Positions 1-60,200 of a stretch of DNA of 64,000 nucleotides are shown piece after piece; positions within the stretch are counted from its first letter, which is position 1, and each line of letters begins with the position of its first letter. The DNA is from Tetradesmus obliquus. Its lineage: Eukaryota; Chlorophyta; Chlorophyceae; Sphaeropleales; Scenedesmaceae. The translations under genes and the position numbers were made by a program. The notes below the pieces were generated by a model that worked only from the letters and a program-made list of their open reading frames with translations, was not told the DNA's origin and made no database searches. The stretch lies in the NCBI GenBank assembly GCA_030272155.1, contig CP126203.1, positions 2,046,001 to 2,110,000 of the forward strand. Reading direction: 5' to 3'.

Positions 1-3000
1 CGCCTCAGGCTGCCAATTTGTCTACCAGCAACTGCTGAGTAAGGCACACACCTCAACCTGCTGTGCTGCTTCATCCAGCCACGCCTGCTTCTGCAGCTAC
101 TGCTATATGAATCGCTAGCTACATGCAGCATATAACCTCACGCACCTGCTGCTGCAGCTGCTGCAGTGCGCGTGGCTCCAGCACCGCCAGCACCTGCAGC
201 AGCGGCCTCACGCGCAGCATGACGCCGTGCAGCTTGGCACGGTCCGGCGGGGACACCTTGCTCCACCCTGGCAGCACAGAATACAGCAGGAGAAGGAGAA
301 ATGCTTTGTCAGTCAGCCGGCGGCAGCAGGCTTGCTACACCCTGACAGCACACACAGCACAGCAAAAAAGAAAAGCAGCAGCAGCAAAGCAAAAGAAGAC
401 AGCACGAGAAATGCATTGTTTTTGAACTGGGTGCAGAGCCACCAAAAAACAGTATGCACAACAGTGTTTGCCTAGACATGTTTGCCAGCCTGCGGGCAGT
501 CATGCTGCCCACTGGAAAGCAAGTAATGATGATCTGTTAGCGGTAGATGTCCCACTGTCGGCATGCCTGCTGCTGCCCTGCATGGCCCCGCCCATGAGCT
601 GCAAGGAGCGCACCCATCAGACAGCATATTAAATCATAAAGAACTATATTCAACACAGTTTGCGCCACTCACTTTCGCTGTGCCTGGCACCAGCCTCCAT
701 GGCCTCTCCCATGAGCTGCAAACAGTGCACCCACTTGAGAGAAAGTGAAGCCAGACAGCAAAACACAACCTTTATCTTGGGTCACTCACTGTCGCTGTGC
801 CTGGCACCGGCCTCCATGGCCTCTCCCACGAGCTGCAGCCAGTGCACCCACTTGATTGCAGTTTAAACATGAAAGAAACTAAGCACATCATTTGCGCGAC
901 TCACTGTCACTGTGCCTGGCACCGGCCTCCATGGCCTCTCCCATGAGCTGCCCCACCAGCCCAGTGATGAAGCCCACAGCAGCACCCACAAAGCTGCGGC
1001 CAAGGTTGAGAATTGAGAGCAGCAGCAGCAGCGTCAGTAACAGAACATGCCATGCGGGGAGCAGCGTGCAGAGGACAGCCTTTGAAAGAAAGTTAAATCA
1101 TGACATGCATCGTACGCTGCAAGCACCTTCAAACTGGACCGGTAGCACCCACCACTGTTGCAGGAATACCTGTGCCCGCACAATGTGCTGCAGTTGCAGA
1201 CGGCTTTCTCTTTTTGAATTCCACAAAAAGCGCAAATAACATAAACTGGAGCAGGTGTTAATCTACCCTATCCTCACCAATGCTGCCCCCTAGATTTGGG
1301 TAGAACCACCCAAACCGCTGCTCACCGTGAGGCCAGCTGGTGCAGGCGCGCCTGTGCCTCCTTGCCCCCCCGCCATCTGAGTCAGCAGCGGGTTGAGGCC
1401 GCTGCAGCAAAACCTTGAACTCAACCCTAACGGGCTGGTGCTCAGCCTCCCCAACTTCTGTCCAAATTCGCTGCTGACCTGTCCTCAAAGCAGCTCACAG
1501 CAACACACGCTGCTGCAAAGAACCCCTGACAGCTCAAACTCTTCTCTTTCGCAAGCTCACCGTGAGGCCAGCTGGTGTAGCCGTGCCTGTGCCTCCTTCA
1601 CCACCCGCATCTGAGTCAGCAGTGGGTTGAGGCTGTCAGGGGCGCCGCCTGCCAGCCAGGTGCGCTTGGCATGCAGCTGCCAGGCAGCAGACACAGCAGG
1701 GGCAAGCCTGCAGCAGCAGCAACAGCAGCAGTGATAAGAGCCAATAGAGCCTGCAGCAGACACCACAAAGCACAGCATCCGCTTGATCTCAGCCGTCGCG
1801 TCTCCCTGCCCAAGGCAGCATAGCTTAAGCCCTAAAACCTCCAACCCTGACCTTAAAGCCCTGGCTTCAAACCCTTCCGCCCACCGGTCGAGCTTCAGGT
1901 CTGGCGCCTCCAGGGCAGCTGTCAGGTTCCCATAAACGCCCAGGCCCCCCAGCAGCTGCTGCAGCAGCCGCAGCAGCATCTCTAAACACTTGAAGCTCTG
2001 CCCCACAACCCTACATGTTACAAAAAATCTGAAACCCCGCACCTGTCCAGCTTGAGGTCTGGTGCTTCCAGGGCAGCTGTCAGGTTCCTGTCAACGCCCA
2101 GGCCCCCCAGCAGCTGCTCCAGCAGCCTCACCAGCATCTCTAGCACCTCAACCCCAAACCATAAACCCTACATGACACATAACATGTTACAAAAGATCTG
2201 AACCCCGCACCTGTCCAGCTTGAGGTCTGGTGCTTCCAGGGCAGCTGTCAGGTTCCTGTCAACGCCCAGGCCCCCCAGCAGCTGCTGCAGCAGGCCTCAT
2301 CCGCATTTCTAAACACTTGATGCTCTCCCCGAAACCCTACATGTTACAAATAATTTGAACTCCGCACCTGTCCAGCTTGAGGTCTGGTGCTTCTAGTGCT
2401 GCTGTGAGGTTCCTGTCAACGCCCAGGCCCCCCAGCAGCTGCTCCAGCAGCCTGCTGAGTGCTGTGTTGTGCCTTGCTTGGCGCTCCAGGCTGTTGTTGC
2501 TGGCCTCGATTGCTTCTATATCATCACGCATGTGGCGCAACTTGAAGTCAAAGACCTGCGGCACAGAACGGAGCAAAACCAAGTGAATCAAACATGGTGG
2601 TGGACTGGCCACCACCAGTCAAGTGCCTGCGGCAGGTGAGGTGCAGGGAAGCAGAAAATCAGGGTGATTGAGTGCTCCAGGCTGTCGTTGCTGGCCTCAA
2701 TGGCTGCTATGTCGTCACGCATGTGGTGCAGCTTGAAGTCAAAAACCTGCGGCGGCACAAAGCATGGCCAGGGTTGATCTGCAGCACATGAACCAGCTGC
2801 TGTTGCTGGCTCATTTGCTACTATGCCATCGCGCATGTGGCACAGCTTGAAGTCATAGACCTGGCAGCCGGTTCAAAGTCAACTGTCAGAAGCACACACC
2901 CACAACTCACAATCTCAGCATCACACCTGCAGGCTCTGGTCCAGGTCATCGAGCACCCGCCTGCAGCTGCCACTCAAACCTGACCTTGCAGAAGATGCAA

Positions 3001-4250
3001 GCATCAACAGCTGTATTCACACCTGCAGGCTCTGGTGCAGGTCATTAAGCACCGCCTTCCCCCCACGTACACGCACACACACACGCACACGCACACGCAC
3101 ACGCACACACCTTCATCCCCCCCCCCCCCCCCCCCCCCACGCCCCCCCCCCCCCCCCACACACATGCACGCACTTCTTTCCACACACCTGCAGGCTCTGG
3201 TCCAGGTCATCAAGCACAGCCTGCAGCTGACTTTGGATCACGCCCATTGAACAGCAGTAGACAGCAGTAAACAACATAACCAGCGTGACATAATCAACAA
3301 AGCACACCTGCAGGCTCTGGTCCAGGTCGTCAAGCACAGCCTGCGTGTGCCGCAGCTGCCCCAGCACGCCCTCCACAGCAGGCCCACAGCCCAGCAGCGC
3401 AGCAACATTGGCAGCCTCCAGCGCGGCAGCCTCCTCCTGCAGGGGCGAAACAGCAAGACAGTAAAACACATAGAAACTGGCCATCAGCGCTGTCAGGCCC
3501 AGCGCTGCCCTGCTTTGAATAAGCCCCGTGTACCTGCACATGATTGCCAAGGCAACAGTCAGGCACAAACAACAACAGCACAGCCGCAGCTGCCCCAGCA
3601 CGCCCTCCACAGCAGGGCCACAGCCCAGCAGCGCGGCAACATTGGCAGCCTCCAGCGCGGCTGCCTCCTCCTGCAATATGGCAACAGACAATTCAGCGAG
3701 CAGGGTAACATGCAGGATCAAACGATAAGACACTGTGGGAGCAAGGAAGTAACAGACACGGCATAGTAGGAGCTCGGCAGCCGCCTCCTGCAGCAATTTC
3801 AAACAGACCACCACCCAGACATGCAGGAGCCTGCAGCACTGCAGGGCCTGCTGCATGCGCGCCTAAACAGTCACAGTGCAGAGCATCACGGCACAATATG
3901 ATAACAACCAGCACATACTTGCAGCGCTGCTGCGAAGGCGTCCGCCTCCCCCAGGCCCATGTCACAGCTGGCATCGGCCATCTAACCTGAAGATCCGGGT
4001 TCGATGCCCGGCCGCCTCACTCCGTGGTGAGGGTAACAAACATGGTGTTTTGTGCCATATCTGCCGCACAACAGGGTCACAACCGCTTGGCTGGCCAAAA
4101 CCAAAACGCCCACCTGCAGTGCTGCCGCAGAAGCGTCCGCATCTCCCAGGCCCATGTCGAAGCTGGCCAGCAGCTCCGTGAGGTCTGCCTGCCCTGCCCT
4201 GCCCAGCAACAACCCCGCCATCATGCAACCGCTGCTGCGCAGGCCTCCTA

Positions 4251-4290
<40 letters not shown>

Positions 4291-5793
4291 GCCCTGAAGC
4301 GTGATGAACCCTGGTCACCCTGCTAAATTGTCCCCAGAAAACCCCAAAAAAACCCCACCTGCAGCGCTGCTGCGAAGGCATCTGCCTCCCCCAGACCCAT
4401 GTCGAAGCTGGCCAGCAGCTCCGTGAGGTCAGCCGCCTCCTTGGCTGACATCAGCACGTCAGCAGCACTGCTGTCCTCGGGCGAGCGCCCCACCTGCGTC
4501 AAGCGTAAGACACAGCAGCAAGCAGGGGCACGCATGGAGAGATTGAGGTCAGCCGCCTCCTTGGCTGACATCAGCACATCAGCAGCAGATGAGTCCTCCG
4601 GCGAGCGCCCAACCTGCGGCAAACAGAAAGAGTGTTAGGGTTTTTGCTTGCTTGGGCATGCACAAATGTGGTGGTGCGTATGCTTGGTGCGCATCAGCGA
4701 ATCAGCAGCAGATGAGTTCTCGGGCGAGCGCCCCACCTGTGGAAAGCATGAATGTATTGTATATAGATGATATTGACAAGTTGCAGAGTTTGCACACATT
4801 GCACGTGGATACATATCATACACTTGGCGCGAATCAGTACATCAGGTGCACCGTCTCCCAATCCCTCCGTGCCACTGCCCCTCTCTGCCCTTCTCTTCCC
4901 AGCAGCAGCAGCGCACCAGTACTGCGCCGGCGTCACAACTTCCAGCGCAGATTAGGACAGCCCTGCGGTGACTTCCTCCTTGTGGCTGGCCCACCAAGCC
5001 AAACATGGCACACCCAACACACACAAGCTATGGAACCCCGCTCAACAAGCACACACATTTCTCCCGTCCCTTTCTGCCTTCCCCTCTCCCTCACACCCCG
5101 ATTACACAACCGCTACAACCCTGCCTCACCAATATTGCGCCTGGCGTCACAACTTTATAGCGCAAACGATGACAGCCCCGCAGTGACCTCCTCCTTGTGG
5201 CTGGCCCACCAGGCGCGCAATGCCAAACATGCCACACTCAAAAGACACACACGTGCTGCAGCTCCATCCCAATCAGACACTCTGTTTTCTGCTGTTCCTC
5301 CCCCTGTCACACCTCGCGCTGCCTTTGTATGTTCTTTTCCCCCAAAACACGCACCAGTATAGCTCCTGGAGTGACCACCTCCAGCGCAAAAGATGACAGG
5401 CCTGCAGTGACCTCCTCCTTGTGGCTGGCCCACCAGGCGTCCAGCCGCTCCATGGTTACACCAGCAATGCTCGGCAGCACCGCATCCTGGTGCCTGCAGC
5501 AGCAGCAGCAGCAGCAGCGGCAACAGGAACAATATGTGTGTGATTAACTGCCAGTGTTTGTCGCTGGCCCACCAGGCATCCAGCCGCCCCATCGTCACAC
5601 CAGCAGTGCTCGGCAGCACAGCATCCTGGTGCCTGCAGCAGCAGCAGCAGCAGCAGCAGCAGGGGCAGCAGCAGCAGCGGAGGCAGGAACAATATGTGTG
5701 TGAATACATGCGAGTGTTGTCGCTGGCCCACCGGGCAACCTCCCGCTCCAAGGTCACACCAGCAATGCTCGGCAGCACAGCATCCTGGTGCCT

Positions 5794-5837
<44 letters not shown>

Positions 5838-5971
5838 GGCAGCAGCAGCAGCGGAGGCAGGAACAATATGTGTGTGAATACATGCGAGTGTTGTCGCTGG
5901 CCCACCGGGCAACCTCCCGCTCCAAGGTCACACCAGAGATGCTGGGCAGCACAGCATCCTGGTGCCTGCAC

Positions 5972-6032
<61 letters not shown>

Positions 6033-7386
6033 CATGTCAATATGTGACTGACACCACAACACAACAGCAGGAATGTTTGAACGACAGTCTGCACGCTGCA
6101 GCAACACGCAGCATCACCCTAACATAACACAATAACACCTGATACATAACACATGTCATGTGGTGCGTACCGCAGCAGCTGCACCGCCAGGCTGGCGAAG
6201 AACATGGCAGTGTGGCCGTCAGGCAGCAGGTACTGCGCACGGTGCTCCGGCTGCGCATGGTGGCTGGCGCATCGCAGCTCCAGCACCTGAGCCAGCAGCA
6301 GCAGCAGCAGGAGACACAACCAACTGGTGACGAGCTGCATTAGCAAATGTTCAGACATCTATTGAACATACACCTCAACCTGCTGCCAGCCTGCAGACAC
6401 GTCATTCGAAACCCATCAACTGTAGTTCCAGATCACCCCACCTGCCGTCGCAGCGCTGCATCTCCGCCTGCCACTTGGCCCAGCAGGGCCGCCTCCGACC
6501 TATCTGCGGCCCTGCCTGGAGCACAGATAACATCCACAGCCCTGACACGGCAACCCCTATGCCCCACAACAGGGTCAAGGACACATGGCCCCATGTGTCC
6601 AGTGGCCGCAGCGTTAGTCTTGTCAGCCGCGTTACGACAGCATTACAAAATTTTCACCCTCCCACCTGCTGCCGCCGCAGCGCTGCATCGCCTGCCCCCT
6701 GGCCCATCAGCGCTGCCTCACTCCTGCCTGAGGCTCTGCCCGGGGAGCTGAGGCGCATGTCGTGCAGGCTCTTCAGGGGGTAGCTTTTGCGCAGCTGCAG
6801 ATGGTAACAGGCACAGGCACGAAAGCAGCACGTGTACATGTCATCTTGCTACATTGAATGAAGCGACAAGGTGACTGTGACGTACCCCTGTCTGCCACAA
6901 GGTGCGCGCCTGATGCACGTCCTTCAAACCAACTTGCTGCACAAATCACTGCACAACCGTATGTTGCATCACTCATGTTATAGCCAGCGCACCTCGAGCC
7001 GTGGGTTGCCCCCTCCATCATCGCTGCTGCTGCGGGTGCCGCCCTGGCCCAGCAGCAGCGGCCGCGCAAAGTGCAGCCAGTACTACGCACACCAATCCAC
7101 TGACCATCGCAGAACACTGCGGCCTATCACTAGCGCGTCCGCACAAGCAGAACGTCCTCGACTGCGTGATGTGCTGTGCACGTCCACTGCGCAAAGCAAA
7201 TGTCACGTGAACGCACCTCGAGGCGTGGGTTGCCGCCGCCGTCATCGCTGCTGCTGCGGGTGCCGCCCTGGCCCAGCAGCAGCGGCCGCGCAAAGTGCAG
7301 CGCCGCCTGGAAGCCCCTGTCTGCCAGGCTGCGCTTCACTGTGAAAATGAGCACCACGCTGCGCAGGGCTTCGCGCGCAAAGGCCT

Positions 7387-7432
<46 letters not shown>

Positions 7433-8636
7433 GGTATTCAGCACCTTGAAGCGCAGCGCGTCATGTGCAAAACACCCGCAGCAGCAGCAGCAGCAGCGCA
7501 ACCTGCGTGGCATAAATACTTGCAGCATGTTCAAGTGCAGTGCCGCCTGGAAGCCGCGGTCAGCCAGGCTGCGCTTCACCGTGAACATGAGCACCACGCT
7601 GCGCAGCGTCTCGCCCGCAAACGCCCGCAGCAGCGGCAAGGCCAAATAACTCAGGCATTGCATATGCCATTGCATATGCTGATAGGCACACTGAACACTG
7701 CAGGCTGTGTCAGCTGCACTGCGCCCGTCACCAGCCACAGCCTGCTGCTGCTGCACTTTGGTGCGCACTACATGCTATGCAGTCTGCTGGTGGCAGTCCG
7801 CAGCTATCAACCTGCTGCCAGCTGCGGCTCTCTCTCTCCTCTCCTCCGTGTGTGGCAGGCTAATTGCACTGTTGGACATATGACCAGCTGCCTGCTGCGG
7901 CGCTCTTTCTGCTCACCTTGCCGCCAAGTGCTTTGAGCAGCTGTGCGCCTGTTGACTCCGATGAGTGGGACACCTTGTGAGCCTGCAGGACAGCATGGTT
8001 CACGCCCCGCCAAATACAACAATATACAGTGGGTTGGCATGTTGGACTAGTTGCAGCACAGGGCATGCCTCGCTATGCGGCGCTGATGTGTGATTCAGAT
8101 GCTTGGCATGCTGCAGCCATTGCCGATTTGACCCATCTGCTTGGCATGCTGCAGCCATTGCCGATTTGACCCATCTGCTTGGCATGCTGCAGCCATTGCC
8201 GATTTGACCCATCTGCTTGGCATGCTGCAGCCATTGCCGATTTGACCCATCTGCTTGGCATGCTGCAGCCATTGCATAGGTGATTAAGGCTTTGAAAGCC
8301 TAGCACCCATCTGGCCCACAGGCAAGACAGCAGCTCGGAGCACTTCACCCGCTGATGCAATGCAGCAACACACCATACGCCTACTCCTCAATGACATGTT
8401 GCAGGTGTTGAATGCTGCATAGCTGCATAGTGCTGCACAGGGCCCAGGCAATGGCAGTGGCAGTGCACCTGCATACTGAGCATCAACTGCTCAATTAGGC
8501 ACTACACCGCTGTATGCTGCCTGCTGCTGCACGGGCCTACCTCGAAGGCAGCAACAACGATGGATTCACTGTCAGCAAAGAGCTCCTCCACGCGAGCAAG
8601 CAGCTGAGCAGCACTCCTGTGCGTGTCTTGGTCCAT
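1..8636 (-). CDS. SEC3: Exocyst complex subunit SEC3 (EXOC1), N-terminal part, gene continues beyond left edge
   Basis: SEC3 is the exocyst subunit that helps tether secretory vesicles to the plasma membrane. Twelve exons can be read: 8636-8541, 7982-7917, 7384-7217, 6794-6666, 6286-6171, 5493-5355, 4493-4359, 3436-3308, 2555-2368, 1707-1561, 993-905 and 267-146. They sum to 508 codons with every phase matching. Exons 3-5 fall in the N-terminal PH-like region (KSYPLKSLHDM). Exon 7 has ELLASFDMGLGEADAF, exon 8 ALEAANVAALL, and exon 9 FDFKLRHMRDDIEAIEASNN. Exon 10 carries LLTQMRVVKEAQARL and exon 12 SPPDRAKLHGVMLRVRPLL. These follow, in order, the plant SEC3A protein as I know it. The start is the ATG at 8636, followed by a 32-codon exon with a clean donor. 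Nearly every exon is accompanied by partial copies in its flanking introns (separate entries). The C-terminal half should lie to the left of the window. Confidence 0.88.
555..855 (-). repeat. Three 3'-partial copies of SEC3 exon 11
   Basis: Segments near 783-855, 665-735 and 555-605 repeat the end of exon 11 (GEAMEAGARHSDS in translation). Two of them keep a GTGAGT donor and the leftmost has GTGGGA. All lie downstream of the full exon (905-993) in the sense direction. The leftmost copy is the most diverged. They read as intronic debris or as alternative exon ends. Confidence 0.8.
1325..1396 (-). repeat. 3'-partial copy of SEC3 exon 10
   Basis: Repeats the last third of exon 10 (LNPLLTQM...HQLAS) with its GTGAGC donor, downstream of the full exon. 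Small indels around an internal G run break its frame. Confidence 0.8.
1893..2861 (-). repeat. Partial copies of SEC3 exon 9 on both sides of the full exon
   Basis: The full exon is 2368-2555. Two 5'-half copies (about 2668-2749 and 2812-2861, beginning FDFKLHHMRDDIAAIE or a decayed form) lie upstream. Three 3'-half copies (about 2209-2294, 2044-2125 and 1893-1970, GNLTAALEAPDLKLD) lie downstream. The two nearer 3' copies are nearly identical to each other and keep the GTGCGG donor. The outer copies are more diverged. Confidence 0.85.
2926..3800 (-). repeat. Partial copies of SEC3 exon 8
   Basis: The full exon is 3308-3436. A near-complete 5' half is repeated at about 3589-3674, with a short remnant near 3778-3800, both upstream. 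The 3' end (AVLDDLDQSLQ then a GTGTG donor) recurs at about 3188-3232, 3021-3056 and 2926-2970, downstream. Confidence 0.8.
3066..3162 (+). repeat. (CA/CG)n tract followed by long poly-C runs in a SEC3 intron
   Basis: An alternating ACACGC tract is followed by two C runs of roughly 17-22 bases separated by ACG. On the sense strand of SEC3 these are G runs, so the intron RNA could form G-quadruplexes. It lies between 3'-partial copies of exon 8. Confidence 0.9.
3917..4855 (-). repeat. Partial copies of SEC3 exon 7
   Basis: The full exon is 4359-4493. 5'-half copies (VGRSPEDSSAADVLM) start at 4613 and 4736, with a faint remnant near 4820-4855. 3'-half copies (LLASFDMGLGDADA) lie at about 4113-4180 and 3917-3970. 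The last copy is cut at 3970/3971, where a tRNA-like sequence begins. Confidence 0.82.
3971..4019 (+). pseudogene. tRNA-Arg-like 3' half (anticodon arm, T arm, acceptor 3' strand)
   Basis: A perfect T arm is visible: stem 3995-3999 pairs with 4007-4011 around the loop TTCGATG. Before it are a 4-nt variable region and an anticodon arm (3974-3978 with 3986-3990, one mismatch) whose loop reads CATCTAA, giving a UCU (Arg) anticodon but A at position 33 where U is expected. After it come a 7-nt acceptor strand CCGCCTC and a discriminator A. The D arm and 5' acceptor strand are absent: bases left of 3971 belong to a SEC3 exon-7 copy. I read it as a truncated tRNA or the head of a tRNA-derived SINE. 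Confidence 0.6.
4920..5965 (-). repeat. Partial copies of SEC3 exon 6
   Basis: The full exon is 5355-5493. Three 5'-half copies (HQDAVLPS...) start at 5965, 5791 and 5632. Each follows a (CTG)n tract ending in an acceptor-like AG, but the outermost copy ends in GTGCAG after an extra GC. Two 3'-half copies (SHKEEVTAGLS...) lie at about 5150-5215 and 4920-5010. The three upstream copies share flanking intron sequence, so exon and intron were duplicated together. Confidence 0.82.
6441..6520 (-). repeat. 3'-partial copy of SEC3 exon 4
   Basis: Repeats the end of exon 4 (6666-6794), with the DAALRRQ-coding segment and a GTGGGG donor. It is noticeably diverged and lies downstream of the full exon. 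Confidence 0.7.
6991..7632 (-). repeat. Partial copies of SEC3 exon 3
   Basis: The full exon is 7217-7384. A 5'-half copy (LRSVVLMFTVKRSLADRGF) lies upstream at about 7530-7632. A 3'-half copy (ARPLLLGQGGTRSSSDD...LE with its GTGCGC donor) lies downstream at about 6991-7069. Together the two halves would make a second complete exon split around the real one. Confidence 0.85.
8101..8277 (+). repeat. 38-bp minisatellite in SEC3 intron 1
   Basis: Four and a half near-identical copies of a 38-bp unit beginning GCTTGGCATGCTGCAGCC, within the first SEC3 intron (7983-8540). The period is not a multiple of three, so the open frames across it are incidental. Confidence 0.95.
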
Positions 8637-10335: not shown

Positions 10336-10449
10336 CTGCTCAACCCTTTGAACTGCTGTAAGCATGTCACTGGCCGAGCCAACGGCTCCCCAACAGGCTA
10401 TCCGTGAACTTTCAGAAACACAAGAATCATGCATAGTGCTGTTGCAGGC

Positions 10450-11762: not shown

Positions 11763-11811
<49 letters not shown>

Positions 11812-12017: not shown

Positions 12018-12048
<31 letters not shown>

Positions 12049-32164: not shown

Positions 32165-35100
32165 ATGGCGCCTGAACACAACACCGCACACCACGTAGCA
32201 GTGCCTTCAGCAGTAGCAGCAGCAAGTTGCGTGGAGGCCGCAAGCAGCGGCATCCACGCGACTCTGGGTATAGAGCATAGAACGTTTCATCCAGTCAACA
32301 TGGACCAGCACGCTCAGCTTCGCAGGACAGCTGACAACCTGCAAACCCCAGAGGCGTCATCCTCATCTATTTCAGACGGGCGCACCTTTGTTGCTGTGAG
32401 ACAACACACGCAGCAGCTGACCCCTCTACTCTTAAAAACTGCTTGTCAGCATACTGGTACCTGCAGTGCATATCCTTGTTGCAAGCTGCCTCAGAGCTAC
32501 ACCAGGCAGGCCATGTTACCTCCCTTAACACGGGCTCAGGCTGCAAGCCAAATCCTCTCTCCTGTCTTACCTCAGCGCAACTGCTTGCCTGTGCATTAAA
32601 AAGGCAGAGTGTACCTGTACTGCTGCCTGCAGCACATGCTGGCTGGCGCTGCTGCTGGCATCACAGAGCACACAGCCATGTATCCAGTGGACACCATAAA
32701 GACGCGCATGCAGGCACTCAGCCATCCAGGCCAGCGGGTGAGTGACGCAACTAGGTCTTTCCTGCAAGCACTTTCCTGCAAGTGCTTTCCTGCAAGCGCT
32801 TTCCTGCAAGTGCTTTCTTGCAAGCGCTTTCCTGCAAGGGCCCGCCAGCAGCGGCAATACAAAATATATGCAGCTGAGCTTGTTGGAAGCATATGTTTGA
32901 TGGCTTTTGGTGGTTGCTGCAGTCAAGCTGCTGGCATGCAAGGCTTGGCAACTGCCATGCGATGGTTAGGCGGGGAGGTCGGCAGCATCTAAGCCTGCAC
33001 AGCAGCTTGCACAGCAGCAGCTGCTGCTGTGGTAGCTGGTGCGTGGTGTGCCATCAGTTGCCTCCACAGGCAAAATCACCAGCAGCAGACAGCGCTGCAG
33101 CCGGCTCCCACCGCAAGTAAGCGGAGCTCTGCTGCCGCTCTGGTGTTACCAACATGCTCATCTCAATGTCGTTTTGATGTCGTGCTTTTGCAGTTGCACG
33201 GCTCTGTGGTGCGGGCGCTGCGAGCTGTCGTGCGGCGAGAGGGCGTGGCCGGGCTGTACAGAGGTGTAGGAGCAGTGGCCTGGGGCGCAGGGTGAGTCAG
33301 CAGCACACCAATGGGCATGACAGCGTTAGTAACATGTTACCAGGCTCGCGGCTAGGTACAGCGCGCAGCACACCAACGGGTGCTGATGATAGCGTTGGTA
33401 ACAGTGTTACCAGGCTCGCGGTGCTCACGGTGCTGTCAGCAGCAGTAGCAGCGGCTGGTGCAGGAGGACGCTGCAGGCTCGTAATGGCAGCCGTGCAGGC
33501 CATGAGCTCTCCTTCCTCACGCATGCATGTTGCAAAGCCCTATGTGGAGCACATGTGCTGCCTGCTGGTACTCGTTGCAGGCCAACTCACGCGATGTACT
33601 TTGCAACCTATGAGCAGGCCCAGCAGCTGCTGGCATGCTGTCATAATGCCTTTTGTGTGTGTGCTGCACGTGCTGCTTGCAGGCCGGCGCACGCGATGTA
33701 CTTTGCAACCTACGAGCAGGCCAAGCAGCTGCTGGGCGGCAACCGGGCCGGCTACCAATGGCTGCCCACAGCAGCAGCAGGCGCCATCGCCACCATTGTT
33801 AATGACGGCTTCATGACGCCTGTTGATGTGGTGAAGCAGCGGCTGCAGGTGGCCCACAGCCCGTACAAGGGTCTGGCAGACTGCACGCGGCAAATACTGC
33901 AGCACGAGGGCGTGGGCGCGCTCTACAAGTCGTACAGGTGAGTCCATGCAGCGATCAAGGTTGTTGTAGCTGTGAGAGCTGCCGCCAGCGCTACACGTCA
34001 GCAGCAGGGAACAGGGTAGTTACAGCATCCGCTTGAGCTGCTGCTCGCAATTCCTAGCGGCTCTGTACAGCTGCCTTGACATAACACCCTTCTACTATCA
34101 GTCGGTGACAGCGTGCCTGGCACGGTCTTGCATATCTGTGTCTGTCATCTTCCGCAGTTCAAACATTGTCATATGTCATGTTATATGTTACATCCGCAGG
34201 ACCACGGTGCTGATGAACGTGCCCTTTACGGCCATGCACTTCTCCGTGTATGAGGCAGCCAAGAAGTGGCTGCTGCATGTAGACAATGAGGAGGCAGAGG
34301 AGCGGCTGAGCGTGCAGCTGGTGGCAGGTGGGTTGCGGTTTGTTGTTGATCTGTTGATCTGTTATGGTTTGCAGTGCTGCACTCGCATTTGACGTTGTCT
34401 GGCCGCGACAATGGAGCAGAGGAGCGGCCGAGCGTGCAGCTGGTTGCGGGTGCGGCGCTGTCGGTGGGCTCTCTTGGTATTGTTGCAGCTGTTTGGGGTG
34501 GTACAGCATTGTAAGAGGCGGCCAAGAAGTGTGCTGCTTGTAGACATTGAGGTGGCGGAGGAGCGGCTGAGCGTGCAGCTGGTGGCAGGTGGGTTGCGGT
34601 TTGTTGTTGATCTGTTGATTTGTTATGGGTTGCAGTGCTGCACTTGCATTTGACGTTGTCTGGCCGCGACAATGGAGCAGAGGGGCGGCTGAGCGTGCAG
34701 CTGGTGGCAGGGCGGCTCTGAGCGTGACCTGTCGTGTGTTTGGGTTGCCTGGTGCACCTTGCCGACTGGTGTCTTTTTTTGTGACATTGAGGAGGCAGAG
34801 GAGTGGCTGAGCGTGCAGCTGGTGGCAGGTGCGGCGTGCTGCTCTGCTGCATGCTCCTTGCATTGTGTGTCCTGCGCAGCTTGTCGCGCCCCTTCGCGCA
34901 GCGGCGGCGGCTTCATCTCAGATGCGCACCTGACTCTCGCATGGATTACTCTTTATGATTATCGAGTCTGGCTGTGCGCTGCTGCAGCCAACAGCACTTG
35001 CGTCATGTATCCTGACCGATTGGCTGCCTGACTGCCTCCTTGCTGCTGCTGCACCGCGCTGTGCACGACAGGCGGTCTGGCGGGCGGCGCTGCAGCGGCA

Positions 35101-35813
35101 GTGACCACGCCGCTGGACGTGGTCAAGACGCGGCTGCAGACAGAGGGCGTGCACTCCAGCAAACGATACGGCACCACAGCGGTGGTGAGCAACGCAGCAG
35201 CAGCAGGGTCAGCAGCGGCGGCAGCAGCAGCAGCAGGGACAGCAGCATGAAAGCAGCTGGAAGCTGTTGGTGCGCGTGCTGTGCGGTGCGCTGGTGGTTG
35301 TACTTACACATCATGCAGTTGCCAGTGCTGCGACGGCTGGCTGCAGTCATATTGTGCGTCATGTTTCCCTGCTTTATGGCGTTGCCGCCGCCGCAGCTGC
35401 CTCCTAGCCTGTCCTTTCTGTCTGCTGTTATGCGCAGATGTGGCGCATCACCTGTGCTGCATCATACGTTTTCTTGCTGCTGCCACTGCAAGTACATCCT
35501 GTTTGCCATGTCTGTTGTGCTGCTGCAGCTGCCGGTGCTGCGCCGCATCATCCAGGAAGAGGGCATGGCTCTGTCGCCACTGAGCACATGCCCTTTCCTA
35601 CTGCCACACTAAATAAATGTATTGTACCATGTGCTCCTGCAGCTGCCGGTGCTGCGGCGCATCATCCAGGAAGAGGGCATGGCCACTATCTGGAGGGGCA
35701 TGAAGCCGCGTGTGCTGTTCAACGCGCCCGCAGCAGCAGTGTCCTGGGGCACTTACGAAACAATGAAGGACCTGCTGCTGGGGCCTGAGGCACAGGGGCA
35801 CCACCACCACTGA
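32165..35813 (+). CDS. Mitoferrin-like mitochondrial carrier (SLC25 family), 366 aa
   Basis: Exons 32165-32395, 32633-32737, 33194-33291, 33683-33937, 34200-34327, 35072-35184 and 35643-35813 total 1101 nt with all phases matching. Three carrier repeats carry the P-x-D-x-x-K/R motifs: [20 protein letters not shown] and [10 protein letters not shown]. Mitoferrin hallmarks include [20 protein letters not shown] and [12 protein letters not shown]. Mitoferrins import iron across the inner mitochondrial membrane for haem and Fe-S cluster synthesis; substrate here is inferred from family. The first 85 residues are Ser/Ala-rich and weakly conserved. The C terminus ends in four His. Its introns hold several partial copies of exons 4, 5 and 7. 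Confidence 0.87.
32758..32842 (+). repeat. 14-bp tandem repeat in mitoferrin intron 2
   Basis: Six copies of TTTCCTGCAAGYRC, starting 20 bp after the exon-2 donor. Each copy contains a pyrimidine run plus CTGCAAG, resembling a weak acceptor. Confidence 0.9.
33581..33636 (+). repeat. 5'-partial copy of mitoferrin exon 4
   Basis: Behind its own TTGCAG acceptor it reads [17 protein letters not shown] in the same phase as the true exon (33683), then runs into intron sequence without a donor. It may compete as an acceptor but cannot complete an exon. Confidence 0.85.
34408..34828 (+). repeat. Four 3'-partial copies of mitoferrin exon 5
   Basis: The end of exon 5 (GAGGCAGAGGAGCGGCTGAG..., [14 protein letters not shown]) recurs near 34408-34450, 34542-34588, 34668-34711 and 34784-34828, all downstream of the exon. 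Part of the following intron is duplicated with them. Donors are intact in some copies (GCAGGTGGG) and altered in others. Confidence 0.85.
35319..35571 (+). repeat. Two 5'-partial copies of mitoferrin exon 7
   Basis: 35529-35571 repeats [14 protein letters not shown] behind a CTGCAG acceptor. 35319-35336 is a shorter, decayed copy. Both are upstream of the true exon at 35643. Confidence 0.8.
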
Positions 35814-35871: not shown

Positions 35872-36038
35872 ATGAGGACCTGCTGCTGGGGCCTGAGGCG
35901 CAGCAGGGACACCACCACTGAGTTTTAGGTTTTAGGGTTGTGTTAAACAGCAGCAGCAGGTGCTGAACCTCAGGTGCAGATGAGAACCTGCTGCTGGGGC
36001 CCGAGGCGCAGCAGGCGCAGCAGCACCACCGCCACTGA
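35872..36038 (+). repeat. Two tail copies of the mitoferrin C terminus in the 3' flank
   Basis: At 35872-35921 and about 35980-36038 the segment coding LLLGPEAQ...HHH-stop is repeated with its TGA. Shared spacers contain CTGAACCTCAGGTGCAGATG. Length differences sit in the CAG run. Confidence 0.85.
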
Positions 36039-37896: not shown

Positions 37897-40061
37897 ATGC
37901 CAGTGAGAGCTCGTGGCGCGCTGGCTCTCTACATCGTAGCACTATGCGTTGCCGGACAAACAGTGGCAGCAGAAGCTGCCAAATCAACCACGCTATCGGG
38001 TGCGGCTTGGTAGAGCAGCGAAAGCAGCGTTCAGGAGCTGGGAACTTACTGCATTGACATCATCATGCATGCACAGCAGCAGCTGATACATAAAGATGGT
38101 GGTGCCAAGCATCCACATCTTCTTGCCTCAAGCACATGCCTTCTGTCGATTTGCAGTCACGTTCACCAACGGCACTAAGAGGATGCTGCAGTACCAGCTG
38201 CCATCGCCAGACAAACGCAAGGCAGCAGCAGCTTCAGCAGCAGCAGGAGCAGGATCTCCAGCAGGCCCCAGCGCCTGCTGCAAGCCGCTTGCAGGAAAGG
38301 TTGCCAGCTTCAGCAGCGGCTTTGCCATGTTCAGCAGCAGCAGCTGTGCGGCAGCAGACAAGGTCTGCAGCTTTCCTGCAGCAGTGATGTCTGTGTGGGT
38401 GTGCGGCTGCCCAGGTGGCAAGTGCTATGGTGAGCCATGCATCAAGTGCTTGAAAATGAAAGGTGTAACACAACAGAGCCTTGCAGTGCCTTGCTGCATG
38501 ACTGTATTGTGAGCCTACTGCAGTAAGGATTATGCAGCACAAGCAGGAGGCCTGCGTGCCAGGCAGTAAAGTAGACTATAACCGCGTGTACACACCCTGG
38601 TAGCGCAGGCAGCGTCATGCTGAGGTACTTTGATGCCATGTTTATCATTTTAAACCCTCACAATGCCACTTGCAGGAAAGAACAATGTGGAGTCAAAGTC
38701 TGAGCTGATCGGTGCATCAGGCTTGGGGTCAACCGTCACACTTAGCTCTGAGTCGCTCTTCAAGCAGTTCAGCTACCCAACAGCCATACGCATCTTCACT
38801 GACACCAGCAGCAACAAAAACAGCAGCAGCAGCAGCAGCAGCAGCGTTGGGCTGTCGCCTTGCAGCATCAAGGGCCTCACATTGGAGTACAGCGGGGGTG
38901 TTGCAGCAGTGGGCCAATCCGGGCCCAGCCTTGCAGAAGTGCAGCTGGGGGGCACAGCAAAGGACCCCGTGGTGGCTGTTGCCTACCAGCTGAGGAGGTG
39001 AGGACTCCATGCTAAAATGACAATGCAATGCACTACACTGCACTCCACTGAATCGTTTGGTGGAATGCCTGATTCTGTTGGTTTGAAATGCGCTGCTGCC
39101 ATCTTGATGTGCTTCGCTGCACTGCATTGCTGCCTGACTGCAGCTGCTTGCACTACTTGGAACCCACCACAAGGTCAGGCAGGGTGGTGCACTGCATCTT
39201 GTATGGCGTGCAATGCATCTTGTCGAAACTTTGTGTTTCGCTGACTCAATGCACTGCACTGCACTGCTTGGCTGCAGCTGCCTGCACTACCTGGAGCTCA
39301 CCACGAGGTCAGGCAGGGTGGTGCATTAAAACGTCCAATTCCCTAGTTCAGGACATCATGCCTCTGCCACCTCCACGCACCTCACTGCTCTGCCCTGCAT
39401 TGCACTGCACTGCTTGGCTGCAGCTGCCTGCACTACCTGGAACTCACCACCAAGTCAGGCAGGGTCGTTCACGCTGGCAGCTACAACAGCTCAGCAGCGC
39501 TGGTCAAACAAGCAGGCCGTGCTGCAGGCAGCAGCCTGGCAGCGGTAGCAGGAGTAATGCGGGCGTCAAGTGGCAGCAACAGCAGCGCAGCAGTCAAGGA
39601 GCCGTTGCAGGCAGTGCGGCTGCTATGGGGCTACAGCCATTGCCCGGCTGTGTTTCGCAATAAAGCGTCGAAAGCATCAGACGGCAGCAGTGGGAGCAAA
39701 GTCAGCAGCCAGGACGTCGCAGTAGCAGCAGCAGCAATGCCGGTAGCTGACCTACAAGTAGCTTCTGCAGTGTCAGAACCTCTGCTGACACCTTCTGTGC
39801 AGCCGGATGCTCCACTACCGTTCACTAGCTTTGCCAGCTGCGGGGGTTCAGATCCAACCTGCTTCACAGAAGATGACTGCTACTGCCAGCTAGCACACGG
39901 CACGTACGCTGCTGCTTGTCCAATGTATGGCACTTGCTTTGGCGCTTGCTGCGCAACCACTGGCGTGTGCCCTGACCGCATGGGATATGAGGATCCAGCC
40001 ACCCGAAAGCAGACGGTGCTGCTCCCGAGGACATGCAGCGACTGGGGTTTGGATCAGCAGG

Positions 40062-46308: not shown

Positions 46309-49300
46309 GCTGCTGCTGCAGGGCCACGCCGAGTCAGTAGTGCACAGCCTGAGCCAGCAGCAGCTGCAGCAGCTAGATGGTGTAGTGGCAGTGGGGGGTG
46401 ATGGCCTTTACAGTGAGCTGCTCACAGGGGTGCTGCAGCACCCGCATGCTGCTGCTGCGCTGCAGCTGCGGCTGGCTCACATCCCAGCAGGGTCCACAGA
46501 CGCAGTCGCATGCACGTGAGTGTGCGGGGTTGCTGCTGATGCTGGGCTTGTTTGGTGCAACTTGTGGTTCTGAGGCAGCTGTGTGAGGCCCAGCAGATGC
46601 GGCTGGCTCATACGCGCGCTGTCCTGCAACCATTGCAAGCCCTGCATGCACGTGCGGCGTAGTCCAGGTCGTGCGCTTTCATGCTGTACATGCACAGCGC
46701 TTGACAATTCTTTCTTCTTCCTCCTCTGCTGCTGCTGCTGCTGCTCCGCCGCTGCTGCTGCTGGCTTTGCAGGCTTCATGGCACGCGCGACCCCCTGACT
46801 GCTGCGCTGCACATTGCCCTGGGTGACTGCACTCCCCTTGACGTGGCTCGCCTGGTGACAGTGGATACACAGCCGGCAGCAGGTGTAGCACCATCAACAG
46901 CAGCAGCTCTGGCAGAACCAGCCGCCACAGCAGCAGCAGCAGCAGCATGCGCCGCATCCTTTGGTGCTTCCTTTGGTGCATCTGCTGGCGAGGAGACAGA
47001 ACTGCTGAGGGCTGGCAGGGCAGCGCCACAAGCAGCAGCAGCAGCAGCAGCAGCTGATGCAGCCACAGCCCCACCCAGCAAGCAGCAGCAGCAGCAGCAG
47101 CGGCACACGCGGCGGCGCCAGCAGCAGCACAAGCAGCACGAGCGGCGGCAGCAGCAGCAGCAGTTTGTGCCGCTGCTGCGCCACTTTGTGTGTGTTGCCA
47201 GCTATGGCTTCCTTGGGGATGTCATGGAGGCCAGTGAGAAGCTGCGCTGGATGGGGCCGCTGAGGTAAGTGTTGTATTTGTATTGTATCTTGTGTGTGCT
47301 GGTGCATTGAACCACGCTGTTCGAGACTGTGCAGGCTGTACATTGTGTTGGACTGTCACGTCATGCTGTGCTGTGCTGTGGGCGAGTGAGAAGCTGCGCT
47401 GGATGGGGCCGCTGAGGTAAGTGTTGTATTTGTATTGTATCTTGTGTGTGCTGGTGCATTGAATCACGCTGTTCGAGACTGTGCAGGCTGTACATTGTGT
47501 TGGACTGTCACGTCATGCTGTGCTGTGCTGTGGGCGAGTGAGAAGCTGCGCTGGATGGGGCCGCTGAGGTAAGTGTTGTATTTGTATTGTATCTTGTGTG
47601 TGCTGGTGCATTGAACCACGCTGTCGAGACTGTGCAGGCTGTACATTGCGTTGGACTGTCACGTCATGCTGTGCTGTGCTGTGGGCGAGTGAGAAGCTGC
47701 GCTGGATGGGGCCGCTGAGGTAAGTGTTGTATTTGTATTGTATCTTGTGTGTGCTGGTGCATTGAATCACGCTGTTCGAGACTGTGCAGGCTGTACATTG
47801 TGTTGGACTGTCACGTCATGCTGTGCTGTGCTGTGGGCGAGTGAGAAGCTGCGCTGGATGGGGCCGCTGAGGTAAGTGTTGTATTTGTATTGTATCTTGT
47901 GTGTGCTGGTGCATTGAACCACGCTGTCGAGACTGTGCAGGCTGTACATTGCGTTGGACTGTCACGTCATGCTGTGCTGTGCTGTGGGCGAGTGAGAAGC
48001 TGCGCTGGATGGGGCCGCTGAGGTAAGTGTTGTATTTGTATTGTATCTTGTGTGTGCTGGTGCATTGAACCACGCTGTTCGAGACTGTGCAGGCTGTACA
48101 TTGTGTTGGACTGTCACGTCATGCTGTGCTGTGCTGTGGGCGAGTGAGAAGCTGCGCTGGATGGGGCCACTCAGGTGGGTCTGGAATGCCACGCTGCGCT
48201 GTGCTGTGCTGTGCTGTGGGGTGCTGTGCTGTGCTGTGCTGTGCTGTGCTGTGCTGTGCTGTGATGGAGGCCAGTGAGAAGCTGCGCTGGATGGGGCCGC
48301 TGAGGGGGGTTGATGATACTGGCCCTGTGGCCGGGCTGTAGCTGATAGCAGCAGCGGCACTGTATGTCGTGCTGCGCTGCGCTGCCACAGGGCCAACACG
48401 CATCTGTTTGTTTTGTTGCGTGTAGAAAGTCAACAGCTGCTGTTCTGCCTGCAGGTATGACGTGGCTGGCGCGCTACGCTTTCTGCTGCTAAAGGGCTAC
48501 GATGCAACAGTGTGGTACAAGCCAGCAGCAGCACCAGCAGCACCTGTAGACGACGAGGATGTGGCCAGTAGCAGCAGCAGCGTGGCACCCTGCGGTCACT
48601 ATAGCCAGCAGCAGCAGCAGCATGGCCTGCTGGAGCCGCTTGTTTCATCTGCTGCACTGTCGCCGCTGCCACACCATTACACGCCAGGGCTGCATGTAGG
48701 CCAGCCAGCCTACAATCACAGCCACCAACAGGAGCAGCAGCAGCAGCAGCAGCAAGGCTGCAGCAGTGTCCGCAGCAGCAGCAGCGTGCGGGTCAGCTTT
48801 GAATCACGCAGCTTACCTGCAGCTGCCAGCAGCAGCAGCAGCAGCAGCAGCCCGGTGCATGGCAGCAGCAATGCTGAATACCTAGCTGCTGTGGATGCTG
48901 CAACAGCAGCACCCCCTGGCAAGGCAATTGCACAGCAGCATGGCTACCCAGCAGTCGCAGCAGTGCATGCGAGCGCAGGCAGCATCAGCAGCAGCTGGGG
49001 CAGCAGCAGCGCAGCAGCAGCGAACGCAGCATCGCAACCTGCCGGCAGCATTGCCGGCAGCATCGGCAGCAGCAGTTACTGCCGCACTGGCTGTGCGCTG
49101 TGTGGTGCAGCGGCACTGCAGCGCAGCAGCAGTCGCAAATCTTTCACACAGGAGAGCCAGCAGCAGCAGCAGCAGCAGCAGCAGCATGCACACTCCATGC
49201 CAGCAGCCACCACTTTTCCCCCAACACAAGCAGGTACTCAAGCAGCAGCAGCAGCAGAGCAGCTGCCGGGAGCGGGCTGGGTGAAAGTGGAGGGCCGCTT

Positions 49301-50201
49301 TGCAAGCATCATGGCAGTTGTGACAAGCTGCCGCAGCGGCAAGAGCAGGTCCGGGGTGTGCCCTGAGGCGCATCTAGCAGATGGCAGGCTGGTGCTGGTG
49401 CTTGTGGAGAAGAAGGGCAGGCTTGCTTACCTGCGGTTCCTGCTGCAGCTGGCCACCCAAGGGGTGGTGCCTGGCGCGCTGCCATTTGTGCGCGTGGAGC
49501 ACGTGACTGAGGTGCAGGTGAGGGGAGGGGCTTGTCACGTTGTCTTGGTTACTGCTTTGCAGACTTGCGGCTGTGAGGCTTGGTGGTGCTGTTTGTGCGC
49601 GTGGAGCATGTGACTGAGGTTCAGGTGAGGCCGCATGCCAGTGAACCACAGGCTGTGATCGGCTGTGGCATGGGCTGAGTACAGCTGGTGGGATGAGGAG
49701 CACAAGCACACGGCAGCATGCAGAGAAGCCTGGACCATGCTGCAGTTTGCAAACCGGCGGTTGTGAGACTTAATGGTGCCATTTGTGCGGGTGGAGCATG
49801 TGACTGAGGTGCAGCTGAGGGGGCAGCTGCTGCTGCCTGGGCAGGGCAGGGCCTGTAGGGTGTGATGTCTCAAATTGAGGGGTAGCGGTCTTCTTGCCGA
49901 TGGTGTGAGCGCGTCATTTGGCAGCCATGGATCTGCACTTCCATCGCTGCTTGCAGTAGTTACCTGCTGCGGTTGGCGCAGCTCTGCCAAAAAAAAATTG
50001 CTGCGCCCGCTGCTGCTGCTGTGCTCGCTGCTGCTGCTGCTGCTGCTGCTGTGCTCGCTGCTGCTGCTGCCGCAGGTGCATGCGCGCGGCAAGCAGAGCA
50101 GCTGGAACGTGGACGGGGAGCTGCTGCGGCACCCGCGCGTGCACATCGGCGTGCATGCAGGGCTGGTGGACGTCTTTGCCCGCGGCATCGAGCAGATGTG
50201 A
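43809..50201 (+). CDS. Ceramide kinase (CERK/ACD5 family), about 879 aa
   Basis: Ceramide kinase makes ceramide 1-phosphate from ceramide and ATP. Ten exons: 43809-44005, 44171-44214, 44311-44469, 44774-44853, 45314-45465, 45748-45880, 46322-46515, 46773-47264, 48455-49517 and 50076-50201, 2640 nt, all phases matching. Residues 1-200 form the variable N-terminal PH-like region. The diacylglycerol-kinase fold begins with KHLLVFVNPFGG (about 213-224) and has the catalytic GGDGLYSELLTG (from 280) and IPAGSTDAVACTLHG. CERK-specific blocks are YGFLGDVMEASEKLRWMGPL followed by RYDVAGALRF, and the C-terminal SSWNVDGELL with GLVDVFARGIE. Two long Ala/Gln/Ser insertions (exon 8 and exon 9) explain the length; human and plant enzymes are about 540-610 aa. 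Intron 6 has a GC donor (CACCAG|GCAAGC). The first ATG is uncertain. Confidence 0.9.
45932..46081 (+). repeat. 64-bp-arm inverted repeat (hairpin) inside ceramide kinase intron 6
   Basis: Arms 45932-45995 and 46018-46081 are complementary with a single mismatch seen by eye. The 22-nt loop itself can pair GTGTG with CACAC. In the pre-mRNA this would be an almost perfect 64-bp RNA duplex. No terminal target duplication was noted. It could be a foldback mobile element or a small-RNA precursor. Confidence 0.93.
47234..48300 (+). repeat. Eight copies of the end of ceramide kinase exon 8 with its splice donor (151/152-bp array)
   Basis: The segment GTGAGAAGCTGCGCTGGATG starts at 47234 (true exon), 47386, 47538, 47689, 47841, 47992, 48144 and 48274. 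The first six are followed by GAG|GTAAGT. The seventh has CTCAGGTGGG, and the eighth has lost its donor (GAGGGGGG). Unit lengths alternate 152/151 because of a one-base indel (TTCGAG or TCGAG) and linked substitutions, a small higher-order pattern. The array lies in intron 8. Confidence 0.93.
48197..48262 (+). repeat. GCTGT pentamer microsatellite
   Basis: About 13 GCTGT units with one GGGGT interruption, expanded from the short GCTGTGCTGTGCTGTG present in each unit of the surrounding array. Confidence 0.9.
49590..49814 (+). repeat. Two 3'-partial copies of ceramide kinase exon 9
   Basis: About 49590-49624 and 49776-49814 repeat the FVRVEHVTEVQ-coding exon end. The first keeps the donor (TTCAG|GTGAGG) and the second has lost it (GCAGCTGAGG). 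Both lie downstream of the exon. Confidence 0.85.
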
Positions 50202-50654
50202 TGCAAGCAGCAGCAGCAGCAGCAAGTGGCAATATGCACTGCGAGCAGTGCAAGCAGTGGCGTGCCGACAGGGCTGGGGGGATGCGTGCAGACACACAGG
50301 CATGCCACGCAACAGGCGCCGCAGGAACAGGCACCGCAGGAACAGGCAAGGCTGCCAATCATGTGTGTGTACCCTTTACTGTAAGGGGCAGCAGGGCTGC
50401 TGTCAGGACATGGAATCCATGTATGCCTTTCGGTTTGCGCTGTGCTCAATTAGCGATGAGCGAGACCATCAGCAGGAGTGGTGAGTCGCAAATTGCATCA
50501 GCAGCTGCAGCCAGCTGCTGTGAGTCTGCAGCAGGGTTTGCACAGGCAGGGAAGCACTTAACACTGTTCTGCGGCAGGTTTTGTCCTATTGATGCTTTGG
50601 GGTCATCATTTTGCTTGTGTGTGTTGGCATTAATTGCTACACATGCGCATGGCT

Positions 50655-50689
<35 letters not shown>

Positions 50690-57200: not shown

Positions 57201-60200
57201 TGTTCCACGCTAATGCATTGCTAACGCTGGCGCGTTGTGTCCGTCTCTGCAGGTGCGCCGGCTGCTGCGGCTGCTGGTGGTGGTGCTGCTGCTGCTGCTG
57301 CTGCCGCTGCTGCTGCTGCTGCTGCTGAAGATGACAGCATTGCCTCAGATGCCGCAGGTGCGCGCAGCAGCGTGTAGCGGCATTTATAAGCATTTGTGTG
57401 ATGTGCAATTCTGCGCTGCTTTGCATGGCATGCTCGCAACAGGTGCACAGCCGGCACTTGTTTCTCTTTCAACCCGGTGTGCTGCTGCTTGGTAGGCATG
57501 CATGCAGCGATGACGCTGGCGCGCTGTTTGTGTCTGCAGGTGCTGGTGATGCAGCTGCTGCTGCTGCTGAAGATGGAGGTGGCGGCGTCGCGTCAGATGG
57601 CGCAGGTGCGCGCAGCAGCGTTGTGTAGCGGCATTTGGAAGCATTTGTGTGATGTGCAATTCTGCGCTGCTTTGCATGGCATGCTCGCAACAGGTGCACA
57701 GCCGGCACTTGTTTCTCTTTCAGCCCGGTGTGCTGCTGCTTGGTAGGCATGCCTGCAGCACTGACACTGGCGCGCTGTTTGTGTCTGCAGGTGCGCCCGC
57801 TGCTGCTTGTGATGCAGCTGCTGCTGCTGCTGAAGATTGTGGTGGCGGCGTTGCGTCAGATGGCGCAGGTGCGTGCAGCAGCGTTGTGTAGCGGCATTTG
57901 GAAGCAGTTGTGTTATGTGCAGATCTGCGCTGCTTTGCATGACATGCTCGCAACAGGTGCACAGCCGGCACTTGTTTCTCTTTCAATCCGGTGTGCTGCT
58001 GCTTGGTAGGCATGCCTGCAGCGCTGACGCTGGCGCGCTGTTTGTGTCTGCAGGTGCGCCCGCTGCTGCTGGTGATGCAGCTGCTGCTGCTGCTGCTGCT
58101 GCTGGAGGTGGCGGCGTCGCCTCAGATGGCGCAGGTGCGCGCAGCAGCGTTGTGTAGTGGCATTGGGAAGCAGTTGTGTTATGTGCAGATCCGCGCTGCT
58201 TTGCATGGCATGCTCTCAACAGGTGCACAGCCGGCACTTGTTTCTCTTTCAATCCAGTGTGCTGCTGCTTGATAGGCATGCCTGCACACTGGCGCGCTGT
58301 TTGTGTCTGCAGGTGTGCCCGCTGCTGCTGGTGATGCAACTGCTGCTGCTGCTGCTGGAGGTGGTGGTGTCGCCTCAGATGGTGCAGGTGCGCGCAGCAG
58401 CGTTGTGTAGCGGCATTTGGAAGCAGTTGTGTTATGTGCAGATCCGCGCTGCTTTGCATGTCATGCTCAACAGGTGCACAGCCGGCACTTGTTTCTCTTT
58501 CAATCCGGTGTGCTGCTGCTTGATAGGCATGCCTGCAGCGCTGACACTGGCGCGCTTTTTGTGTCTGCAGGTGCGCCCGCTGCTGCTGGTGATGCAACTG
58601 CTGCTGCTGCTATTGGAGGTGGCGGCGTCGCCTCAGATGGCGCAGGTGCGCGCAGCAGCGTTGTGTAGCGGCATTTGGAAGCAGTTGTGTTATGTGCAGA
58701 TCCGCGCTGCTTTGCATGTCATGCTCGCAACAGGTGCACAGCCGGCACTTGTCTCTCTTTCAATCCGGTGTGCTGCTGCTTGGTAGGCATGCCTGCAGCA
58801 CTGACACTGGCGCGCTGTGTGTGTCTGCAGCTGCGCCCGCTGCTGCTGGTGATGGTGGTGCCGCAGGTGTTGTGTTACGCAATATATGAAGTACTTGCTG
58901 GCGCGGCTGCTGCCGCTGTCGCTGCTGCTGCTGCTGCTGATGCTGCTGATGCCGCTTTGATGATGTTCTCATCAATATCGGCGGTATAGCGGCAAAACAG
59001 GCATGCTGTATACTTGTATCCATTACTGAGTGCTGCTACTGTTCTGCACATGACTGCTGCTTTGTCTGCAGGTGGTCATGGCGTGTATGTCACTCCTGCT
59101 GAGCGGGACCCCAACACGTCCGCCATCTTGGCAGGCACAGCCTTCCTGCACTTTGCTGTGCTGGGGGCTGTGTATGCGGACTCCCCTGCGCGTGCCAAGT
59201 TGATGTACACTGTGGCTTCCTGGACAGCGTACCTGGTTTGCCCCTTCTGCATCATGGTGGGGACCAAGGTTGATGACGTGGTGCGGTATCTAGGGTATGG
59301 GCATGCAGTGGCCATCACCAAGGGCTACGGAGCAGGCAAAACGTGCAGCATGACTGCCGGTGGCGATGACCGCTACGTGGATGAGTTTGTGAACCGCGTG
59401 CGCGCGCATGTTGCAGAGCAGTACCGTGTTGCTGGTGTGCAGCCTCCTGACAACTCCCCCTTCAAGGGGCTGAGCCCTTTCCTCAGCGAGGATTTGTACT
59501 GGGTGGATGCCAACCGGTTGTGGATCGTGCCCTTCTGTCACGCGTTCTTCCTGGGCGTGTTTAAGGACTTTCTGGAGGCCATCTTTGCCAAGGGAGCGGC
59601 AGCACAGGTGAGCAAGTGTCACAAACTGTTCTGTGTCCAGCTAAAAACCTTGCGCTACACCACAACGATATGTGTACACACACGCATTTGCATATTATGC
59701 AGTGTAAACTTTGCAGCATGTCATTAGTTCAACCAGCATGCGCTCAGCATGCTTGGCAACTCAAAGCGGTGTTGTTGTACATGCCCAGATTTAGATGTCA
59801 TCTGCTAGCAGGCTTGCTAGCTGCCACCTTTGTTCTCTCTGCGTTTAGTGCACGTCTCAGCATGACATGCCTTTCTGCTTTCCGTGTTCTGCGCACTTCT
59901 TGTTTTGTCTCTTGCAGGAGAGCAAGGTGCCGCAAGTGCCCAATGAGTCCAGGCGCATCATCAAGGGCCGTGTCCGTGGCCTTGGCATTGGCCTGCACCC
60001 GAACTTCAACAGGCCCGCCAGGGATGTGCTGAGCAGCAGCAAGGGATCCTGGCAGATTGAAGATTTTGCGCGGGCCCTGGAGTGCTTCCTGCCGCTGCTG
60101 TTCCGTCCGCATCGCAGCGGCAACACCTCTGAGGAGGTGCTGCAGCCGGACATTGTCAAGAAGAGCTTTGGTCACCTGCGGCGCTTTGGCTTGTTCCACA

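Follow-up and report, generated by a model that had tools for sequence, protein, structure and literature searches.

Internal gene duplication is reportedly ubiquitous and common in eukaryotic genes, a view attributed to Gao and Lynch (2009). The duplications described here are likewise intragenic. Tandem duplication has been reviewed as a route to new introns (PMC3443670). In the Rogers model and Hellsten et al. 2011, as described in PMC3443670 and PMC4974935, an AGGT-bearing exon segment is tandemly duplicated and an intron is gained. The duplications analysed here resemble that model in that short intragenic tandem duplication multiplies splice sites, whereas they differ in that the units cross existing exon edges and leave the exon unchanged, instead of comprising an exonic segment that yields a new intron. 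In the potato RdRp gene, according to Ma, Lan and Niu (2016; PMC4974935), one tandem genomic duplication crosses an intron-exon boundary, and from the duplicated sequence an additional intron and exon arose, whose splicing is supported by RNA reads. That case concerns one gene; here many units occur in many genes, the outer copies are apparently incomplete exons, and they are known from DNA alone. Searches of one open-access library turned up no genome-wide description of such a process, which is not proof of absence. The assertion of an earlier, sequence-only reading of this DNA that no described process has this signature was too strong, given the potato case (PMC4974935). The kind of duplication is already known; its density here is unusual.

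The window, that is, the whole 64,000-nt stretch of DNA analysed, corresponds to G000:C13:2046001-2110000 within a 17-contig assembly of 104.66 Mb. The DNA is eukaryotic; its composition and the style of its genes hint at a green alga, which is a guess. The sample used for wider counts comprised 284 kb from six contigs, namely the window plus 200 kb and 20 kb from five further contigs. Figures described as genome-wide cover these 284 kb of 104.7 Mb and depend on gene models from our own self-trained finder, built without RNA evidence. The finder supplied strand and frame and was run for three self-training rounds from fixed splice-site starting profiles; free self-training over six rounds was dropped when the models drifted to tiny exons. 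From the sample, 165 consecutive pairs were kept, 148 of them inside genes (114 gapped and 34 tandem).

Self-comparison of 264 kb yielded 307 direct and 2 inverted repeat pairs at distances of up to 2 kb, the direct, adjacent arrangement expected of boundary-crossing tandem duplication. Repeat density was uneven: clusters per 10 kb numbered 4.4 for the window and 0.5, 1.5, 4.5, 2.0 and 10.5 for five 40-kb chunks; self-comparison of a 20-kb chunk found no repeat pair. The densest sampled stretch, L025-L028 (c15a), holds 42 local direct-repeat clusters per 40 kb. Unit lengths fell between 100 and 160 nt in 58 of 114 gapped pairs and 19 of 41 tandem pairs, and the two classes overlap in unit length. 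The pattern is real: a dense, uneven set of probable boundary-crossing tandem duplications. A rule that copy distances are multiples of three was rejected: many SEC3 distances fit it (for example 120, 234, 285 and 381) but the sample does not, the start offsets of gapped pairs leaving remainders of 0, 1 and 2 in 81, 72 and 65 instances. Two further arrays were observed in the window. One, at 57286-58834, has about six copies of a unit of about 263 nt and belongs to a gene with a weak Transposase_21 match in its upstream part (E 0.0048, which does not reach the curated cut-off), and at 62435-64000 an array of a 282-nt unit with 99% matches continues past the window end.

The exons and their partial copies in four genes of the window are collected in Table 1. 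SEC3, on the minus strand at 555-8636, was identified by a match to Sec3_CC (E 7.7e-17 over three joined exons). The others are a carrier spanning about 32.6-36.1 kb (match to Mito_carr, E 1.8e-78; named mitoferrin in the sequence-only reading), a protein at about 38-43 kb with no Pfam match, and ceramide kinase (DAGK_cat, E 2.8e-14; CERK_C, E 2.1e-12). Upstream copies in SEC3 start at the acceptor and stop within the exon, and downstream copies start within the exon and end at the donor. The SEC3 exon part at 7212..7301 and its copy are 96% identical, with four differences, all silent. The ceramide kinase array at 47229-48176 is young and consists, at 98% matches, of 6.2 copies of a unit of 152 nt that joins an exon end and intron; the copy at 49777-49822 of the same gene carries CT instead of GT at the donor. 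For a hand check in the window, 12 of 13 reference peptides were located and exon edges were set by reading splice sites. Seven of 43 rows were dropped, their reference being the second perfect ceramide kinase copy at 48264-48305, which left 36 copies. Across the 12 stretches, the 11 upstream copies all have the first base of their exon stretch as their start, and of the 25 downstream copies 24 reach to within 1 nt of its end (3' edge or stop codon); the single exception stops 31 nt before it, where the alignment has a gap. It had been proposed for five genes, one of them referred to as the Cys-rich gene, that copies of the 5' part lie upstream of the full exon and copies of the 3' part downstream, and these counts bear this out in four: SEC3, the carrier, the 38-43 kb protein and ceramide kinase.

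Table 1. Exon stretches in the window and the positions of their partial copies.
Feature	Position	Strand	Copies and remarks
SEC3 exon 3' part	7212..7301	-	downstream copy with donor 6988-7077
SEC3 full exon stretch (HQDAV...)	5352..5492	-	hand-set reference
HQDAV... exon, upstream 5'-part copies	5891-5967, 5717-5793, 5558-5634	-	
HQDAV... exon, downstream 3'-part copies	5159-5215, 4912-4996	-	
SEC3 full exon A (VGRSPED...)	4359..4493	-	hand-set reference
Exon A, upstream copies with acceptor	4692-4739, 4544-4622	-	
Exon A, downstream copies with donor	4109-4189, 3920-3972	-	
SEC3 full exon B (EEAAALE...)	3308..3436	-	hand-set reference
Exon B, upstream copy with acceptor	3583-3675	-	
Exon B, downstream copies with donor	3183-3224, 3018-3057, 2922-2956	-	
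SEC3 full exon C (VFDFKLR...)	2367..2555	-	hand-set reference
Exon C, upstream copies	2796-2863, 2674-2753	-	
Exon C, downstream array of 3'-part copies	within 1882-2297	-	
SEC3 exon 3' stretch (DSLNPLL...)	1563..1637	-	hand-set reference; downstream copy with donor 1320-1399
Repeat of SEC3 exon 3' part	659..951	-	period about 117
Carrier exon	33684..33746	+	upstream copy with acceptor 33575-33633
Carrier exon	34234..34326	+	downstream 3'-part copies 34416-34452, 34543-34591, 34677-34711, 34783-34831
Carrier exon	35643..35699	+	upstream copy with acceptor 35516-35569
Carrier terminal exon	35763..35810	+	downstream copies 35875-35939 (with stop codon), 35961-36015
Exon of 38-43 kb protein	39428..39487	+	upstream copies with acceptor 39118-39191, 39250-39325
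Ceramide kinase exon 3' end	47224..47265	+	downstream array of donor-bearing copies to 48176, period 152
Last copy of the 47224..47265 exon end	48264-48305	+	perfect copy, donor lost
Ceramide kinase exon 3' end	49479..49517	+	downstream copies 49592-49630, 49777-49822

Within genes of the sample, a splice site shared at one end was seen on the gene strand in 66 of 114 gapped and 25 of 34 tandem pairs, against 12 of 114 and 0 of 34 on the opposite strand. One splice site was shared in 89 of the 148 pairs, both in 2 and none in 57. The side on which copies lie was scored from the coding continuation past the inner end, with frames from both copies and an absolute difference above 2 taken as decisive; 48 gapped pairs were for the rule and 9 against (n=64), and 15 tandem pairs were for and 7 against (n=25). 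Several of the pairs against the rule appear to be noncoding or copy-copy pairs. A cleaner set of 71 splice-edge pairs, in which the frame was read from whichever copy the rule designates as full, slightly favouring the rule, gave 53 that fit, 1 that breaks it and 17 undecided. The proposed association between side and splice-site type is thereby upheld in the 284-kb sample, which covers the window and stretches outside it. In one c15a pair (14137/14337) the donor is probably false, as the exon appears to continue past it.

The side rule is a consequence of geometry and not a new law, and no further process is needed. Because any tandem duplication across an exon edge produces it, it is not an independent signature; the tandem-duplication origin proposed with it is well supported by the direct orientation (307 to 2), the unit lengths and the 28 of 71 pairs that share co-duplicated intron. 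When units of the observed lengths are placed at random, 34% of them cross a single boundary, or 48% without units wholly inside exons, and the observed proportion of single-boundary pairs (89/148, 60%) lies above this range. The modest excess may reflect the longer detectability of exon parts. Whole-exon pairs are rare, with both sites in 2 of 148 pairs against 8.6% of random non-exonic units.

That recurrent short tandem duplications across exon edges explain the exon-end copies is assigned a probability of roughly 80%. The rarity of whole-exon pairs and the overlap of unit lengths between the two classes also speak for it. Against it count the 43 of 71 pairs with no more than 20 nt of alignable intron, an omega lower than simulations of copies dead from birth produce, the 9 of 57 decisive gapped and 7 of 22 decisive tandem pairs that contradict the side rule, and the surplus of single-boundary pairs over random placement. 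On this explanation, short tandem duplications, most often of 100-160 nt and some of 200-280 nt, would keep arising in genes. A unit crossing an acceptor must leave a partial copy, consisting of the 5' part and the acceptor, upstream of the intact exon, and a unit crossing a donor or stop codon must leave one downstream. The putative duplication step would probably be tolerated, because it does not disrupt the exon and adds the second splice site beyond the exon's limits, where the spliceosome would presumably neglect it. Repeated rounds would produce arrays and longer introns, and the intron part of a copy would lose recognisable similarity earlier than the exon part.

Two features were overlooked in the sequence-only reading: the intron parts are mostly unalignable, and the differences are mostly silent. 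With respect to the first, the length of intron homology beside the splice site is most often 3-18 nt, reaches about 190 nt at its longest, and extends no further than 20 nt in 43 of the 71 splice-edge pairs; the 28 counted above as co-duplicated exceed 20 nt. Divergence per nt was 0.068 in exon and 0.101 in intron over the 36 alignments with enough intron. Most gapped pairs have unlike flanks on both sides: on the splice side, z was 1.8 for A copies (n=30) and 1.2 for D copies (n=32), whereas simulation at 0.15-0.25 divergence gave 4.6-7.7, although choosing pairs whose alignment ends at the edge biases towards unlike flanks. Such flanks would suit a break-repair process that copy-pastes exon ends into introns as templated insertions. 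That process should also give inverted copies, and on either side; it is very improbable here because the orientation is direct-only, and the side rule holds. Unlike intron flanks were also considered as an exclusion of tandem duplication, an argument that was withdrawn, forward simulations having attributed them in part to the selection of pairs by alignment end. When sequences intervening between copy and exon were compared against the 284-kb sample, 25 of 64 matched at E 0.01, many within their own local array and some short or of low complexity, and no introner-like repeat family was seen.

The inner ends of the copies carry no splice site above background. Among 30 A copies, a lenient cut-off gave 5 (2.6 expected) and a strict one none; among 34 D copies, the lenient cut-off gave 16 (13.9 expected) and the strict one 4 (5.4 expected). 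Therefore, the copies appear not to be complete exons. The idea that they are complete alternative exons with acceptor and donor was rejected on these values and on the scarcity of pairs with both sites, and the suggestion that the process is a source of new exons is unsupported.

Copy-exon differences in the 71 pairs (39 families) comprised 210 silent and 164 replacement changes, an omega of 0.29 (family bootstrap 0.21-0.36) that depends on short alignments and on gene models from our own finder. The copies appear less decayed than dead DNA should. Diverged-allele joining, or use of the copies, could cause this silent excess. Continued use as alternative exons or splice sites under purifying selection is consistent with the mostly silent differences, with stop codons at 2 of the 1321 codons in the copies, and with splice scores alike in copy and exon (acceptor 4.85 and 4.83, donor 6.11 and 6.26), in pairs preselected above a score threshold. 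It is nonetheless unlikely, given the background-level inner ends, the predominance of frameshifting indels (10, with 1 in-frame) and the replacement-rich far copies. In the 16 of 42 triples that passed filters, unique silent and replacement changes numbered 19 and 9 in the full exon, 14 and 11 in the near copy, and 24 and 41 in the far copy.

Duplicates were also evolved forward in simulations and compared by the same procedure as the real pairs, for which the corresponding values were an omega of 0.27-0.33 and 61% of pairs without alignable intron (class 1; 43/71). Copies dead from birth gave an omega of 0.53-0.65 and 20-24% class-1 pairs, so that, within these simulations, simple decay does not fit. 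Always-constrained copies gave 0.14-0.16 and 56-69%. A two-phase history, which lets copy and exon both function for an initial period, gave 0.17-0.24 and 76-91% with a pre-divergence fixed at 0.3, and 0.24-0.31 and 53-62% with a pre-divergence spread over 0-0.5. Of the simulated models the spread two-phase history fits best, with 0.03-0.06 class-1 exon indels per substitution (observed 0.028), despite excess silent divergence in class 1 (0.29-0.31 against 0.22). Recent pairs (intron difference below 0.08, 11 pairs) differ by 0.140 at silent sites and 0.027 in introns, which runs opposite to simple decay but is confounded by arrays.

Such a history would arise if duplications joined, or later exchanged with, a diverged functional version such as the other haplotype; from the outset the copy would then differ from the exon at silent sites, and also in its intron flank, and would decay only later. 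This would add to tandem duplication rather than replace it, and we consider it less likely than not. The near agreement of the spread model in class-1 fraction, omega and indels per substitution speaks for it, as do the changes in triples and the frameshifting indels, which are expected of a late neutral phase. Against it stand the silent overshoot, the surplus of class-1 pairs at a fixed pre-divergence of 0.3 and the very high allelic diversity required; a search of the assembly with 2 kb of SEC3 also gave no second version at another place. A 12-kb window query for a paralogous second version gave matches read as simple-repeat-like, the best at query positions 2761-2847. Cis gene conversion between copy and exon was set aside by argument. 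The fuller proposition is more doubtful still, namely that the copies were not dead at birth but came from, or exchanged with, a second functional exon version, largely through inter-allelic duplications in a very diverse population, with introns as a patchwork of allelic exon ends.

Differences of a two-version appearance, together with 2500 N inside one sampled stretch, could also point to assembly error, for example two haplotypes written in series. This is the least probable explanation: single exons have several copies at differing divergence, far copies contain many replacements, frameshifts are present, classical multi-unit arrays occur, and the pattern is repeated on other contigs.

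If recurrent tandem duplication across exon edges holds genome-wide, this lineage would allow intron growth and splice-site multiplication through ordinary short tandem duplications to be followed at a range of ages within a single gene. The silent excess, if confirmed, would mean that the copies have a functional past, tying intron growth to allelic exchange or copy use.
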